A stretch of 64,000 nucleotides of DNA from Robiginitalea sp. GTDB taxonomy: Bacteria > Bacteroidota > Bacteroidia > Flavobacteriales > Flavobacteriaceae. Position numbers and translations under genes: made by a program. The DNA lies in the NCBI GenBank assembly GCA_024638915.1, contig JAHEJJ010000001.1, positions 124,001 to 188,000 of the forward strand, given 5' to 3'. This document shows positions 7,613 through 49,000 of the stretch, piece by piece. The notes under the pieces were generated by a model. It saw only the letters and a list, made by a program, of their open reading frames with translations. It had not been told where the DNA came from and did not search any database. The stretch's first letter is position 1; every line of letters begins with the position of its first letter.

Positions 7613-7827
7613 AAGATGGATTTTATGGACTAAATGTAATTAATTTTCAACTTCTGGTATGAAAACGGTCGTCAACGATCCCATAGATCATCGAATGAAT
7701 TTTGGTTCGATGCTCCAGATCGAACGGCAATCAACTTAAAAAACGATGAAATACCATAAATTTTAACACACCTTATGATTATCCAGACAATCTCTGGCGA
7801 ATTATCGACGTTATCATAGCGGGTTGA

Positions 7828-7948
7828 GATAGTCCAAACAACAGTTCTTCAAAGCATAGAAAAAGAACGGACTGACTGAGAGGACTATTGATATTTTGGT
7901 TGGTTATTTAGTTAGAAAAACCCTGGTGATGAACACTGGGGTTTTTTT
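7828..7948 (+). ncRNA. Candidate structured small RNA ending in 17-mer plus terminator
   Basis: The 334 bases between the gpsA start and the transporter stop hold no gene but clear RNA-like structure on the plus strand, antiparallel to both neighbours. An outer stem GATAGTCC (7828-7835) with GGACTATT (7882-7889) encloses GTTCTT (7844-7849) with AAGAAC (7863-7868). Then come the 17-mer TTTGGTTGGTTATTTAG (7895-7911) and an intrinsic terminator. Further upstream lie hairpins at 7705-7725 (GTTCGAT/ATCGAAC) and 7783-7797 (CCAGA/TCTGG), so the 5' end may be earlier. I found no consensus promoter. The same 17-mer and terminator arrangement recurs at 41006. The family is not identified. Confidence 0.4.
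7916..7948 (+). terminator. Intrinsic terminator overlapping the transporter stop codon
   Basis: A 13-bp stem (AAAAACCCTGGTG at 7916-7928, CACTGGGGTTTTT at 7934-7946, two G-U wobbles) has a 5-nt loop and a T run to 7948. It is nearly symmetric, so it could also end the leftward transporter transcript, whose stop codon overlaps the T run. Confidence 0.8.
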
Positions 7949-10190
7949 ATACCAGCGCACTTTCTACACTGGAGTCTCTCGTAAACAAGCAAGCAGTTCT
8001 CAGCTTCTTAGGTATCTCCTGAAGGCGCAGCAAATCCAGACCTTGCACATTGGGAAGTTCAAGTATATTCAAATCTGCCACCGGTGCTTTGTTCCACATT
8101 TCAGGTGTCCTGCGCACTACGCTAATCTGAGTATCCTTAGGCATACGTGTCAGAGCTTTGATGCTTTTTAATTCGCGCAGGGTATCAGCTTCAGACCAGC
8201 TGCTCTCTGCACGCAGTGTCTTGATAATATTCAGACGTGCTTTCCAGTTTTTTTGAATGATCAGGGCAGTAAGGAGTGCCAGGTCGTTGTTACCCAGGTT
8301 CAATACCGTTTCCCAGTTTTCAGGAATGACATCGAGCCAGACATTGATGGTTTTTTCGATTCCGAATCCCACACTTTCATAGGGCGCCAGTAAAAGCAGT
8401 CCCCAGTTACGCTTTCTCGTTGCATTGATAATGGGCATGTATTTATCCTGCAAACCATGCTTGTTTTCATCAAGTTTAAGGAAAATGGTATTGGGTTTGA
8501 AGAAGGCCGTTTCCAGGGCCTGCATACTGATGCTGACCGTTTTGCCGAAATCGTCCCCATCGACGAAGGTATAAGATGAGGAGATCTTTGCCTTTTTAAA
8601 AGACAGCATAAGTTCGGGGAGATATTGCCTGAGTCTCTGTTCTTCACCACCCAGCAGCATACCGATCACTTTTACAGATCCTTTGGGAAAGGTCAGGGCA
8701 TAGATAAGCCGGTAAGCACCTTTGATTTCCTTTGGTGATTCGATCGGAACCAATAGTTCAGGCTGCCAGGCCCTGGCTTCCTTGGTAGGAGAAAGTTCAT
8801 TCGAGATTTTAGTGGCCCAGTCGGCAATAGCGGTAAACATCCCACTGCGAACGTCGCCCTTGGTCTTTATCAAAACCCTGTTGAGAAGCATGGCGTAAAA
8901 TCCCACAACAATACCCAGGGCAACCAGGGAGATCGTAGGGTTGATAATGAACATGACCAACAGGCATCCCGCAGTTCCGATCAGGGGCACGAGGATGGGA
9001 ATTTTCAGCATCGGTCTGTAACTCGGTAAGCCGAGGCTTTGCTCGATAAGCACCACTACATTGATCATGGCATAGGTGATCAGAAAGAACATGGTTATAA
9101 GCGGTGCTATGGCATTAAGATTGCGGAACATCAGCGAGATTATGACCACCACTATCGAGAAATAAATGGAATTCCTGGGCTGTCCGTTCCGACCCATCTT
9201 GGCAAAAAACTTGCTTTTAGGGAGAATGTTTTTTTGCCCCAAAGCCAGCAGTATGCGAGGTGCACCCACCATAGAACTAAGGGCAGATGAAAAGGTGGCA
9301 CCCAGTAAGCCAGCCACGACTATGGGTTTCCAAAGGGAGCGGTTAATAAAAATATAGTAATCACTTACCAGTTCTTCCGGTGTGGCAATAAGCGATGCGA
9401 CAAGGATCAATCCCATGTAAATTAAGCCGGTCAACAATACGGCAGAAAGCGTACCGCCTGGGATGCTTTTACGTGGATTGGAGAGTTCGCCAGACATATT
9501 CACACCCGCCATGATTCCTGTAACCGCAGGGAAAAATACAGCAAAGACGATCCAGAAACTTGCCGGTTTAAAACCAAGCAGCGCACCGGATGCGCTATTG
9601 AACAAGGGTTCGCCTGGATAATTGCCAAACCAGTGCATTTGCTCCCAGGCTATAGGGTTTTGGAAGACTCCACCCACTATAGATACCAGAGATCCGACTA
9701 TAATGGCCATAATTACATACTGGATCTTGAAGGCGATATCTGCACTCAGCCCCCCGATTACGGCGACCAACGTAAAGATAACCGCATCGATGAGCAAAGG
9801 ATCGTGCTCAGGGTAGATCCAAAGCCAGCCTTCACGGAAACCGAAGATGTACATGGCAACCACACATGCCTGAGCAAGATACAGCGGTATCCCAATACTA
9901 CCTCCTATTTCAAGACCAAGGGATTGTGATATTATGGAAAAAGCACCACCAGATTCTATACGGATATTTGTCGTCATGGAAGCCATAGACAAGCTTGTGC
10001 ACAGCGTAATGCCAATGGATATGGCCACAATGATAAGCGCCCCTACGATCCCCGCGTTACCTACAACCCAGGGATGACGGATGTACATGATAACCCCGAG
10101 TATGGTAAGGACCGTTGGGGTAAATACACCCTGGAAGGTACCGAAGTATTTAATCCCGTTCTTGCCTTTGTATCTTTTAAATAGAGGCAT
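7947..10190 (-). CDS. SLC12-like cation-chloride cotransporter / APC-superfamily permease
   Basis: A 747-residue inner membrane transporter. Residues 1-450 carry about 12 transmembrane helices of the APC fold, opening with KYFGTFQGVFTPTVLTILGV and VIMYIRHPWVVGNAG, which closely resemble the first helices of the Na-K-Cl / K-Cl cotransporter family. The remaining ~290 residues are cytosolic and resemble the SLC12 C-terminal domain in position. The transported ions are inferred from the family (chloride with Na+ and/or K+), and an amino acid substrate cannot be excluded. The ATG at 10190 is preferred to the adjacent upstream TTG. The gene stands alone, with its 3' end inside a bidirectional terminator. 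Confidence 0.8.
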   Translation of the reverse strand: MPLFKRYKGKNGIKYFGTFQGVFTPTVLTILGVIMYIRHPWVVGNAGIVGALIIVAISIGITLCTSLSMASMTTNIRIESGGAFSIISQSLGLEIGGSIGIPLYLAQACVVAMYIFGFREGWLWIYPEHDPLLIDAVIFTLVAVIGGLSADIAFKIQYVIMAIIVGSLVSIVGGVFQNPIAWEQMHWFGNYPGEPLFNSASGALLGFKPASFWIVFAVFFPAVTGIMAGVNMSGELSNPRKSIPGGTLSAVLLTGLIYMGLILVASLIATPEELVSDYYIFINRSLWKPIVVAGLLGATFSSALSSMVGAPRILLALGQKNILPKSKFFAKMGRNGQPRNSIYFSIVVVIISLMFRNLNAIAPLITMFFLITYAMINVVVLIEQSLGLPSYRPMLKIPILVPLIGTAGCLLVMFIINPTISLVALGIVVGFYAMLLNRVLIKTKGDVRSGMFTAIADWATKISNELSPTKEARAWQPELLVPIESPKEIKGAYRLIYALTFPKGSVKVIGMLLGGEEQRLRQYLPELMLSFKKAKISSSYTFVDGDDFGKTVSISMQALETAFFKPNTIFLKLDENKHGLQDKYMPIINATRKRNWGLLLLAPYESVGFGIEKTINVWLDVIPENWETVLNLGNNDLALLTALIIQKNWKARLNIIKTLRAESSWSEADTLRELKSIKALTRMPKDTQISVVRRTPEMWNKAPVADLNILELPNVQGLDLLRLQEIPKKLRTACLFTRDSSVESALV

Positions 10191-10264
10191 CAAATTATTT
10201 TTAGAAAAAGGTATATCAAAAAAGTGAAATTACCATACGCAAAACGGCAAATTGTCTTTGTCTT

Positions 10265-39690: not shown

Positions 39691-40833
39691 ATGTCCACAG
39701 TAGATAATACATCGTTAAAATTAACCAAGGAAAATGAACAGGCAGCCGATTTTTTGCCTCTTCTGGGAACAGATCACGTAGAACTATACGTAGGTAATGC
39801 CAAGCAAGCTGCTTACTATTATATGGCCGCATGGGGATTTCAACCCCTGGCCTATGCAGGTTTAGAAACCGGGCTCAAAGACAAGGTATCTTACGTCTTA
39901 CAGCAGGATAAGATAAGACTGGTGCTGACCTCACCTCTTAAACCGGGAGGCGAGATCAACCGCCATGTCAATTCACATGGTGATGGCGTAAAGGCTATCG
40001 CGCTATGGGTGGATAACGCGTCAAAAAGTTATGAGGAAACCACAAAAAGGGGGGCCGAAAGTTATCTGAAACCTACAACAGTTAAGGACGAGCACGGAGA
40101 AGTTGTGCTTTCGGGTATTCATACCTATGGAGAAACGGTCCATATTTTTGTGGAGCGAAGCAAATATTCCGGACCCTTTATGCCCGGATACATAAAGTGG
40201 GACCCCTATTACAGGGCGGAGCCTGTGGGCCTTAAATACATAGATCATATGGTGGGCAATGTGGGGTGGAATGAAATGAACAAATGGTGTGACTTCTATG
40301 CCCGTGTCATGGGATTTGCCCAGTTGATCTCCTTCGACGATAAAGATATCTCTACAGAGTATACCGCCCTTATGAGTAAGGTGATGAGCAATGGGAATGG
40401 ACGGATCAAGTTTCCTATCAATGAACCAGCCGAAGGGCGCAAGAAATCGCAGATAGAGGAGTATATTGAATTCTACAACGGTGCTGGGGTTCAACATATC
40501 GCAGTGGCTACAGACAATATTATAGAAACGGTAACCTCTCTCAAAAAGCGTGGGGTAGAATTCCTCACCGTACCGGCCATATACTATGAAGATGTCCTGG
40601 ACAGAGTAGGAGAGATAGATGAAGACCTTGCTCCTTTAAAAGAACTGGGAATACTTATAGATCGCGACGATGAGGGATATCTGCTTCAGATCTTCACCAA
40701 ACCTATCCTCGACAGGCCTACGATGTTTATCGAAATCATTCAGCGTAAAGGTGCCAAATCTTTTGGCAAAGGAAATTTTAAAGCGCTTTTCGAATCGATC
40801 GAAAGAGAGCAGGCGTCCAGAGGTACTTTGTAG
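39691..40833 (+). CDS. hppD: 4-hydroxyphenylpyruvate dioxygenase
   Basis: A 380-residue non-heme iron enzyme that turns 4-hydroxyphenylpyruvate into homogentisate in tyrosine and phenylalanine breakdown. It has two vicinal-oxygen-chelate domains. The iron ligands His186 (YIDHMVGN), His269 (VQHIAVATDN) and Glu348 (FIEIIQRKG) are in the C-terminal one, and the closing helix FGKGNFKALFESIE is intact. Homogentisate dioxygenase, often next to it, is not in this window. A GCCTTTA/TAAAGGC hairpin follows the stop at once. Confidence 0.95.
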   Translation: MSTVDNTSLKLTKENEQAADFLPLLGTDHVELYVGNAKQAAYYYMAAWGFQPLAYAGLETGLKDKVSYVLQQDKIRLVLTSPLKPGGEINRHVNSHGDGVKAIALWVDNASKSYEETTKRGAESYLKPTTVKDEHGEVVLSGIHTYGETVHIFVERSKYSGPFMPGYIKWDPYYRAEPVGLKYIDHMVGNVGWNEMNKWCDFYARVMGFAQLISFDDKDISTEYTALMSKVMSNGNGRIKFPINEPAEGRKKSQIEEYIEFYNGAGVQHIAVATDNIIETVTSLKKRGVEFLTVPAIYYEDVLDRVGEIDEDLAPLKELGILIDRDDEGYLLQIFTKPILDRPTMFIEIIQRKGAKSFGKGNFKALFESIEREQASRGTL

Positions 40834-40948
40834 GCCTTTATTCTTAAGGATTTGTAAATTTTTAAAGGCTTGGTATAAAGTATTGTTAATTGTGTAGTTA
40901 AAGAACGTTAAAAGCTGTTAGCCCCAGTGGCCCTTGTATTACTTTTAC

Positions 40949-41056
40949 ACCACGTAAGGGGTGGTTCCCTTATTACTTTAAGTATTGGTTTTTCATAATT
41001 TAAAGTTTGGTTGGTTATTTAGGAAAAGCTCTGACGTTCAAGTCGGGGCTTTTTTT
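40949..41056 (+). ncRNA. Candidate structured small RNA, second copy of 17-mer plus terminator
   Basis: The 333 bases between hppD and the DUF3108 gene contain no gene. On the plus strand lie ACCAC/GTGGT (40949-40953, 40961-40965), a competing AAGGG/CCCTT pair, and ACTTTAA (40975-40981) with TTAAAGT (41000-41006). The latter stem ends where the 17-mer TTTGGTTGGTTATTTAG (41006-41022) begins, and a terminator follows after one base. The layout mirrors that at 7828-7948. It may be a separate small RNA or a processed 3' end of the hppD mRNA; no perfect promoter was found. Confidence 0.35.
41024..41056 (+). terminator. Intrinsic terminator downstream of hppD
   Basis: AAAAGCTCTGAC (41024-41035) pairs with GTCGGGGCTTTT (41042-41053) with two G-U wobbles and a 6-nt loop, then a T run to 41056. 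Same design as the terminator at 7916. Confidence 0.8.
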
Positions 41057-41145
41057 ATACAATACTTTGGAACAAAATTTGTTTAAGGTTATGGTAATCA
41101 TCCATTAAGTAATGGTTATGAAGTCTTTAGAAGCTGAATAATTGA

Positions 41146-41166: not shown

Positions 41167-42018
41167 ATGAAAAGAGGACTTATCATTCTTCTGATGCTTT
41201 TCGGTGTTCTGCTGAATGCCCAGGATACTTCTGATTTTGTCTACACTGATTCATCGCATGTGGAGAAGGATTCGGGCAATCACGAAAAGAAAAAGAACAT
41301 CCCTATGGCTTTTAAACCGGGGGAGTGGTTAAAATTCCGAATACACTATGGCATCCTTAATGCCAGTTATGCCACCCTTCACCTTACCAGGGACAATATC
41401 GATCAAAAACCTGTTTACCATGTAGTCGGACGGGGAAAAACAACAGGCTTTGCCAGTATTTTTTTCAAAGTTGATGACCGGTACGAAAGTTATTTTGATG
41501 TGCAGGACGGAAAACCCTACCGATTTATTCGCAAGATTGATGAAGGTGGTTATACCAGAGATACCGAGATCAATTTTGATCATAATCGTGATATCGCCGT
41601 CTTAGATGACAAGAAAACTAATAAAAAGTTTAAATTTACCGTTGAAGACAGCATTCAGGACCTTATTTCCGCTTTCTACTATCTGCGAAATAATTTTGAG
41701 GCAAAAGATCTGGTACAAGATGAGGACATTGAATTGGAGATGTTATTCGACGATGATGGCATTTTTAAGTTCAAACTTAGATACCTGGGTAAAGAGGTGC
41801 TAAAAACCAAATTCGGCAAAGTTGAATGCCTTAAGTTCAGACCTTTTGTGCAATCTGGAAGGATATTCAAAGAACAGGAAAGCCTCACACTTTGGGTGTC
41901 GAACGACCTCAACAAAATTCCGATCAGGATTAAGGCTGATCTGGTAATAGGCGCCATCAAAGCAGATCTGGACGGATATAACGGTCTTAAGAATCAGTTC
42001 AAGATTATAATGGACTAA
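41167..42018 (+). CDS. DUF3108 domain exported protein
   Basis: A 283-residue secreted protein. A signal peptide (about residues 1-19, VLLNAQ) and a Lys/Glu/Ser-rich linker precede one DUF3108 domain: FKPGEWLKFRIHYGILNASYATL at its start, VFFKVDDRYESYFD-like strands, and LTLWVSNDLNKIPIRIKADLVIG at the end. The family consists of periplasmic beta-rich proteins without a known function. It is the first gene of a tight operon, with kynA starting 7 bp after its stop. Confidence 0.85.
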   Translation: MKRGLIILLMLFGVLLNAQDTSDFVYTDSSHVEKDSGNHEKKKNIPMAFKPGEWLKFRIHYGILNASYATLHLTRDNIDQKPVYHVVGRGKTTGFASIFFKVDDRYESYFDVQDGKPYRFIRKIDEGGYTRDTEINFDHNRDIAVLDDKKTNKKFKFTVEDSIQDLISAFYYLRNNFEAKDLVQDEDIELEMLFDDDGIFKFKLRYLGKEVLKTKFGKVECLKFRPFVQSGRIFKEQESLTLWVSNDLNKIPIRIKADLVIGAIKADLDGYNGLKNQFKIIMD

Positions 42019-45979: not shown

Positions 45980-46082
45980 TGTTAAATTATGAGTTTTAAT
46001 TTAACGATGCCTTAATGCATTTAGGCGGAAAAAAAGGCTCATTTGCAAGGGATATTAGAATAACTAAACAACACTTTGAACT

Positions 46083-49000
46083 ATGAGAAAATTATGCCTG
46101 GCCATCGTTGCCCTGCTATCGGTAACTATGGCATTTTCACAGGGGGTTACCACAGCCTCGATTGGAGGTAAGGTCATCGACAGCAATGGGGAACCACTCA
46201 TTGGCGCAACAGTTTTAGCAGTGCACGTACCATCGAATACCACCTATGGTGCCGCTGCCGATTTCGATGGATTTTACCGGATCTCGGGTATGAGGACCGG
46301 AGGCCCATACAAGATTACTTTTTCGTATACAGGCTTTGCCGAAGATGTCCGGGAAGGGGTATATCTCAGCCTCGGACAGAATACCCGGCTGAGTTCCACA
46401 CTTTCTGAGTCTGTAACCGCCTTGGATGAGGTGGTCATCTCTGCCCAGGGTACCGGTGTATTCGGGTCAAATAAGACAGGGGCCAATACAAATGTTTCCA
46501 AAAGAGATATCGAAACACTGCCCGCTGCTTCGAGATCGATTGCCGACTTTGTCAGGATCACCCCTCAGGCTCAGCTGACTGAAGGGAACGATGGATTTTC
46601 CATTTCCCTGGGGGGTCAGAATAACCGATACAACGCCATCTATATCGATGGGGCGGTAAATAACGACGTATTCGGACTCGCCGGTTCAGGAACCAACGGA
46701 GGACAGACCGGGGTAAACCCTTTCTCGGTAGATGCCATTGAAACGTTTCAGGTGAACCTGGCACCTTTCGATGTAAGACAGTCTGGTTTTTCAGGTGGTT
46801 CTATTAATGCGGTCACCCGTTCCGGGTCGAACCGCTTTGATGGCTCCGCATACTATTTTGTGAGGAATCAGAGCCTGGTCGGGAAGACGCCACCAGACCT
46901 GGTGGGACCCACAGAAGATCGCGAAAAGCTCGATGATTTTACGGCCAAGACCTATGGTTTCCGTCTGGGGGGACCTATCGTAAAGGATAAAGTTTTCTTC
47001 TTTGTCAATTACGAAAGGCAAAATGATGAGATCCCTCAACCTTTTAATTTTTCCAATTATGCCGGAAGATCTTCCGAGGCAGACCTCAGCACCCTTACCT
47101 CCTTTCTTCAAAGCACCTATGGGTACGATCCGGGCTCCTATGACCAAAGCGTAAGAACGCTTGAAAGCGATAAGATCACCGCTAAGATCGACTGGAATAT
47201 CAACGAAGACCACAAACTCTCCTTCAGGCATGGTTATGTTAAAGCGGAAAACCTTGAGGCCAGAGCCTCTGGCAATACATTCATAGGCTTTATAAACGGA
47301 TCTGAGTTTTTTGAATCGACCACCAATTCCTCGGCCCTTGAATTGAACTCGCGTTTTGGCAATAAATATTCCAACAACTTTATTATGACCTATACCAGCG
47401 TGCGGGACGACAGGGATCCCTCAGGAATACCCTTTCCCACCGTTGGGATTCAGGATGGTTCGGGCCAGTTTGAATTCGGTTCTGAACCTTTTTCTACGGC
47501 CAACCTGCTGAACCAGGATATTTTTGTGATCACCAATAATTTTGAGATCTATTCCGGGCAACATGCCATCACGGTAGGGACGAACCTCGAGTGGTCTTCC
47601 ACCAAAAACCTGTTCTTTGCCTTTAATTATGGCGACTATACTTTCGAAGACCAATTTGATGGTGCCGGAGCTCTGACTTCTACCGGTCTCAACCAGTTCC
47701 TGACCCAGCAGGATGCAGATGTTTATCAACACGGCTATTCACTGGTAGGAAGTACCGCTGTAGGAGATGAATCTGATGGTGCCGCTGAATTCGGCTTGTT
47801 CCAGGCTGGCTTATATGTGCAGGACGAATGGCAGATCACCGACAATTTCAAAGGCACCTTTGGACTAAGGATCGATGTGCCCTTCTGGGAAGACGGAGCT
47901 GTAAATGATGACTTTAATACAAGGACCGTTCCGCTGCTGGAAGCAGAAGGCAAGAACCTGCAAGCGGCCCGTGTTGGCCAGGGCATTGATGCACAGATCC
48001 ATTGGGCGCCCAGGGTAGGCTTTAACTGGGATGTTGACGGTAAAGGAGAGACCCAGGTACGAGGGGGTGTAGGGATATTTACTTCAAGGGTACCATTGGT
48101 ATGGCCAGGGGCTACCTACAACAACAATGGGGTCACAGGTGGTTTTATGTTCGAGTTCGGACAGCCCTTTGAGCCCGATGTGAACAACCAATTCAAGGAT
48201 CCACTACCCGGAACCGGTGGTGTTGGAGGAAACATAGACATCTTTGCCAAGGACTTTAAACTGCCTCAGGTGACAAAATTCAACATTGGGGTAGATCAGA
48301 GATTGCCATGGTGGGATCTGATCGCTACAGTAGATTTCCTCTATACAGATGTTATTCAGGATGTATATTACGAAAACCTGAACCTCAGAGGGCCAGTAGG
48401 TACGCTCAACGGGACGGATAACAGACCTTATTATGATCGTAGGGATGAGATCGACGATACCTATGGACGGATCATTCTTGGGTCGAATACAAAAGAGGGA
48501 GATGCGACCAACCTTACCTTGTCCCTGAAGAAACCCTTTGAAAATGGCTTTTCAGGCCAGGTAGCCTATACCTATGGAAAATCAAACAAGATCTTCGATG
48601 GTACTTCTTCCCAGAACAGCTCGCAATGGAGGAACCAGGAAACGGTAAACGGTAAGAACTCTAACCTGCCGGTTACTGAATCGGACTTCTCATTAGGAAA
48701 CAGGATCATCGGAAACGTGTCTTACGCTATTGAATATGGCGGAGAATTTGGAGGCAGAACCACCATCGGCTTATTCTACGAAGCGCTGGAAGGCCAGCCC
48801 TATAGTTTTATCTATCAGGAGGGAAGAGACCTCTTAAATGATGATTCCAGAGACAACGCCCTGATCTATGTGCCGAGGAATGCAGGTGAGATCAATTTGG
48901 TAGACTTTACCGACAGCGATGGTAATGTCCTCGCCACTCCTGCACAGCAGTGGGCCGCACTCGATGCTTTTATCAACAGCAGCGACTATCTTAAGGACAG

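Follow-up and report, generated by a model that had tools for sequence, protein, structure and literature searches.

Why should one 17-nt sequence recur, letter for letter, at two distant places, each time directly ahead of an intrinsic terminator? The window, a stretch of 64,000 nt from contig JAHEJJ010000001.1 of Robiginitalea sp. (Flavobacteriaceae), contains TTTGGTTGGTTATTTAG exactly at 7895-7911 and 41006-41022, both on the plus strand. An earlier note had regarded this placement as too consistent for chance and had proposed the shared 3' end of a small RNA family, possibly a processing or binding tag. The two copies are as follows.

7895-7911, plus strand: 17-mer UUUGGUUGGUUAUUUAG, class A copy (window scan, comparison of relatives).
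41006-41022, plus strand: 17-mer UUUGGUUGGUUAUUUAG, class B copy (window scan, comparison of relatives).

The exact 17-mer is found nowhere else in the whole genome (3.04 Mb), and a scan of the window at ≤3 mismatches gave no third match (shuffles, mean of 0.29). Exact matches are present in 27 of 99 genomes (the source genome and relatives), and the reversed control has no match in any of them; several relatives carry two copies on the same strand, ∼30 to 57 kb apart. In the window, the terminator stem begins ∼0 to 4 nt past the 17-mer at both copies. A terminator was computed 0 to 10 nt 3' of the 17-mer in 34 of 35 distinct exact contexts versus 0 of 30 control-pattern loci; in the 35th context (L049), a long-looped terminator is visible by eye. 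Searching the genome and relatives bears out what the note saw in the window alone, a 17-mer placed just before a terminator. AT-rich intergenic gaps often contain T-rich stretches, which might repeat by chance, yet with exact conservation in 27 of 99 genomes and a reversed control that was never found, we practically discount this reading.

A shorter motif, TTTGGTTGGTTAWT, is found in 112 of 149 family genomes, compared with 57 for the reversed pattern (234 versus 86 matches, tables summed by hand over the same 149 genomes). Additional copies of the motif with a terminator were seen at other loci in two genomes (L316 and L317 in G041, L285 in G182); given these extra copies, the family may have more than two members in some genomes.

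The note had placed the copies in unrelated gaps. The copies are there, but each locus proved to be conserved and syntenic across genera in its own right, and only the 17-mer and the terminator are common to both. Judged by this comparison, the two copies mark two different putative RNAs, class A and class B. The remaining features of the class A locus (7780-7948) are listed here.

7780-7894, plus strand: probably the class A RNA in its 5' part, with conservation limited to the two genomes of the genus (G000 versus G001).
7912-7948, plus strand: class A intrinsic terminator (computed), AAAAACCCUGGUG-AUGAA-CACUGGGGUUUUUUU, where the convergent cation-chloride cotransporter gene also has its 3' end.

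The gene for this prokaryotic cation-chloride cotransporter (7947-10193, minus strand) converges on the class A terminator. In relatives, class A adjoins gpsA or, more often, lies a few to ∼100 nt past the stop codon of a lipoprotein gene (∼310 aa, no Pfam family); the locus in the source window lies beside gpsA, without the lipoprotein gene. The downstream gene is not constant and is often on the other strand. Across these loci, class A presents itself as a putative 3'-end element, often ending a lipoprotein gene, with the 17-mer ahead of its terminator.

The class B locus has more parts.

39691-40833, plus strand: hpd (4-hydroxyphenylpyruvate dioxygenase-like), the usual upstream neighbor of class B.
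40885-40912, plus strand: upstream element GTTAA-N7-GTTAAAG-N3-GTTAAA, a candidate activator site, conserved at class B loci.
40940-40947, plus strand: −7 promoter box TACTTTTA (TAnnTTTG in most relatives), recognized by conservation and the consensus in PMC9723704.
40954-40973, plus strand: 5' hairpin with compensatory stem changes and the loop GUGGU(U/G) (fold, covariation counts).
40975-41006, plus strand: second hairpin, whose 3' side, UUUUUCAUAAUUUAAAG, is conserved beyond the need for pairing and is complementary to AUGAAAA start regions.
41023-41056, plus strand: class B intrinsic terminator (computed).
41167-42018, plus strand: DUF3108 gene, the usual downstream neighbor of class B.

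From the promoter-like box, the order is 5' hairpin, hairpin 2, 17-mer, and terminator, with class B itself at ∼40952-41056 (∼105 nt); the spacing of the TAnnTTTG-type box would place the RNA start at the 5' hairpin. The GTTAA repeats, ∼40 to 70 nt 5' of the predicted start, look like a tandem response-regulator site; matches to GTTAAA repeats at other genes of the genome were not above the control. A conserved stretch 3' of the class B terminator, AATACTTTGGAACAAAATTTG (41057-41090 and equivalent places), may serve the DUF3108 gene as its promoter.

The predicted fold of class B (z = −4.8) comprises the 5' hairpin, hairpin 2, a 17-mer that is mostly open in the lowest-energy structure, and the terminator; by prediction, the 17-mer is not more accessible than its flanks (0.46 versus 0.44 unpaired). 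Hairpin 1 is formed by 129 of 134 distinct class B sequences, nearly all with the GUGGU loop. RNAalifold missed it on a mixed alignment (A3), in which stem lengths differ, and pairs were counted directly instead: among 58 distinct hairpins, chosen by their GUGGU loop, 54 to 58 retain each of the first six pairs, and the sixth is C-G, A-U, U-A, U-G, or G-U. In two genomes of one large genus (loci L406 and L415), the 5' hairpin keeps a stem without the GUGGU loop. The best-conserved run in forms B1 and B2 is UUUUCAUAAUUUAAAGUUU(U)GGUUGGUUA; form B3 has UUUAUAG instead of UUUAAAG and a longer U run. The run CTTTAAGTATTGGTTTTTCATAATTTAAAGTTTGGTTGGTTATTTAGGAAA does not vary among ten genomes, apart from a single-base gap close to the end of the run in one of them. 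Across forms with differing 5' arms, the 3' side of hairpin 2 is kept, and because the 5' arm changes more, we suggest that the 3' side has a function beyond the hairpin. With a conserved promoter, covarying structure, and an intrinsic terminator, class B displays, as far as sequence can tell, the anatomy of a complete independent sRNA gene of ∼105 nt.

A class B covariance model gave ∼21 strong matches among 149 sampled family genomes, plus clear divergent forms. Among the matches listed, carriers include Maribacter, Zobellia, Arenibacter, Allomuricauda, Robiginitalea, Cellulophaga, Kordia, Galbibacter, and Capnocytophaga. With a second model, class B was found in 57 of 61 genomes of one large Flavobacteriaceae genus, where hpd and DUF3108 flank nearly all of the 30 loci read. 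Across 247 genomes of the taxonomic class, class B was found only within the family, bar one weak and probably unrelated match. In Kordia and Cerina, class B is duplicated in tandem, and every copy has a promoter box and a terminator of its own; another genome (G024) has three copies, of which the one read lies upstream of a phosphate-permease-like gene.

The earlier note's proposal of a 3' end common to a small RNA family thus stood, on the position of the terminators, the covariation in class B, and the synteny of both loci across genera; its processing or binding tag fared less well. Such a tag could be a protein-binding site, but two well-known candidates to bind it, Hfq and RRM_1 proteins, were not found in this genome. 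We favor, at a probability of roughly 0.55, the reading that both RNAs are trans-acting sRNAs in which the 17-mer is a shared functional tail, or base-pairing seed. Both loci would be transcribed, with the seed common to both RNAs. In class B, the seed would be lengthened 5' by UUUUCAUAAUUUAAAGUUU and could then pair, in mRNAs that begin AUGAAAA, with the start codon and the lysine codons after it. Flavobacteriaceae make little use of Shine-Dalgarno sequences, and binding of class B would block ribosome entry on such Shine-Dalgarno-poor mRNAs, as with GibS and FopS in Bacteroides. The likely targets would be mRNAs for outer-membrane and secreted proteins, e.g., the TonB-dependent receptor at 46083.

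Several observations bear on this pairing. The complement of the conserved class B run reads like a start region (AACCAACCAAA...AUGAAAA). When the class B core was matched against 688 start regions, 111 reached −14 kcal/mol or better, compared with 56 ± 17 for dinucleotide-shuffled cores; coding windows showed no excess (56, shuffled 56). The best predicted target in the sampled genome is as follows.

46053-46095, plus strand: start region of a TonB-dependent receptor gene, duplex of −25.6 kcal/mol with class B (next best target, −20.6 kcal/mol).

Both same-genus orthologues of this receptor gene pair strongly with class B (−25.6 and −23.3), and the pairing is not kept beyond the genus. For the 17-mer alone, pairing at start regions was not in excess (5, compared with 4.0), and enrichment of its k-mers or of seed complements upstream of genes was weak and not significant. 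Part of the start-region signal of class B is generic complementarity to AUGAAAA. In the large genus, class B of two B3 members (L408 and L413) has UUUAAU in place of UUUCAU and so lacks CAU. Given these limits, direct pairing of class B with start codons is a reasoned inference. Antisense sites in start regions were not taken as proof of targeting: 6 of 30 reversed-pattern loci are also antisense at gene starts, and the reversed pattern is not an independent control for target sites, having the mirror-symmetric core TTGGTTGGTT in common with the motif. At seven loci in several genomes (L222, L224, L228, L237, L287, L308, and L319), AACCAACCAAA, the reverse complement of the motif, lies just 5' of likely 3' terminators of other genes; these could be sponge sites or chance occurrences.

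The 17-mer could instead be the docking site of an RNA-binding protein that stabilizes both RNAs, or is titrated by them, through repeated UGGUU motifs. UGGUU occurs in the loops of hairpin 1 (there as UGGU(U)) and hairpin 2 and twice in the 17-mer, an exact 17-mer is conserved in two otherwise differing RNAs, and seed complements are in no general excess at gene starts, all of which would suit a protein. However, no candidate protein of such specificity was found, and the hairpin 2 loop of form B2 lacks UGGUU. A search of the source genome (98% complete) for RRM_1 gave no match while control genomes, one Bacteroides among them, were positive; a search for Hfq (PF17209) likewise gave none, with five control genomes positive, so that the presence of Hfq expected for an Hfq-dependent sRNA was not observed in this genome. 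Protein docking is in our judgment possible but less likely than the favored reading; a base-pairing seed explains the tag at least as well.

It is improbable that class B acts in cis, as a leader or attenuator of the DUF3108 gene, and is no independent sRNA. That gene almost always follows on the same strand within ∼100 to 300 nt, but at class A loci, which carry the element too, the gene downstream is not constant and often has the opposite orientation, copies in G024 lie away from DUF3108, and the structures computed include no anti-terminator fold. An independent gene is also favored by the separate box and terminator of every tandem copy in Kordia and Cerina and by the three copies in G024. 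Its fixed place directly before terminators would also fit the 17-mer as a 3'-end processing or termination-enhancing signal with no role in trans; a general signal would be expected at many terminators, whereas this genome has only two exact copies, at two fixed loci, and the conservation of hairpins 1 and 2 would be left unexplained, making this reading more improbable still. A shared base-pairing seed remains our preferred explanation. Its most far-reaching form we regard as possible but doubtful: a family-wide regulon in which two unlinked RNAs use one 17-nt seed and class B, as an "anti-start-codon" sRNA, would read the AUGAAAA of exported-protein mRNAs without Hfq or RRM proteins, having arisen independently of FopS.

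Do known RNAs resemble this pair? The LhrC/RsaE-type multi-site sRNAs of Firmicutes also have short repeated motifs in loops and before the terminator and occur as paralogous copies; their seed, the anti-Shine-Dalgarno UCCC, and their phylum differ, and no homology is claimed. The earlier note had suggested a link to Flavo-1, which the searches did not support: within the window, no match attains the gathering score of any Rfam family, and Flavo-1 is absent from the weak matches, most of which are to AT-rich models of sRNAs or leaders that include terminators. GibS and the paralogous FopS family (Rfam RF04319) are Bacteroides sRNAs shown experimentally to repress at start regions (PMC7366714, PMC11697453). 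Like class B, they are Bacteroidota sRNAs with UUUUUCAU, an AU-rich spacer, GGUUA(A)U, and a terminator, in that order; FopS paralogues have a common seed, as is proposed for the class A and class B RNAs, and one FopS member is derived from a 3' UTR, like class A. FopS differs in having no hairpin ahead of the terminator in its model, in its 14 copies in B. thetaiotaomicron, and in being bound by the RRM protein RbpB, whereas RRM_1 was not found here. Class B scored 20.8 and 18.6 bits against RF04319 (gathering cutoff, 56), many unrelated families score as well as FopS, and the similarity of the seed region was not significant for three class B forms tested against dinucleotide shuffles (P = 0.42, 0.44, and 0.15). 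Homology to FopS is therefore not supported, striking as the model alignment looked; by analogy, class B may work like FopS.

Within the Flavobacteriaceae, the main text of PMC9723704 describes Rfp18 of Flavobacterium psychrophilum as an sRNA conserved across the genus and predicted to form a strong secondary structure with a third stem-loop, and reports that its deletion lowers two metalloprotease mRNAs. Rfp18 and the other Rfp sRNAs resemble class B in being genus-conserved Flavobacteriaceae sRNAs, a comparison by description, since that main text gives neither sequence nor locus. Should the class B RNA of Flavobacterium prove to be one of the Rfp RNAs, its transcript is already documented there.

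We conclude that the pair is, on comparative evidence, a real family-wide pair of predicted sRNAs, new to Rfam and of a known general kind; the two RNAs are probably gene regulators that stick to mRNAs, and their proposed mechanism is moderately supported. Flavobacteriaceae, a mainly marine and soil family, include major degraders of marine polysaccharides as well as fish pathogens, and to our knowledge, very few trans-acting sRNAs have been characterized in Bacteroidota outside Bacteroides. A structured sRNA that the family retains at a fixed locus and that Rfam lacks offers an immediate handle on posttranscriptional control in these bacteria, and the second RNA with an identical 17-mer makes the shared-seed hypothesis directly testable.
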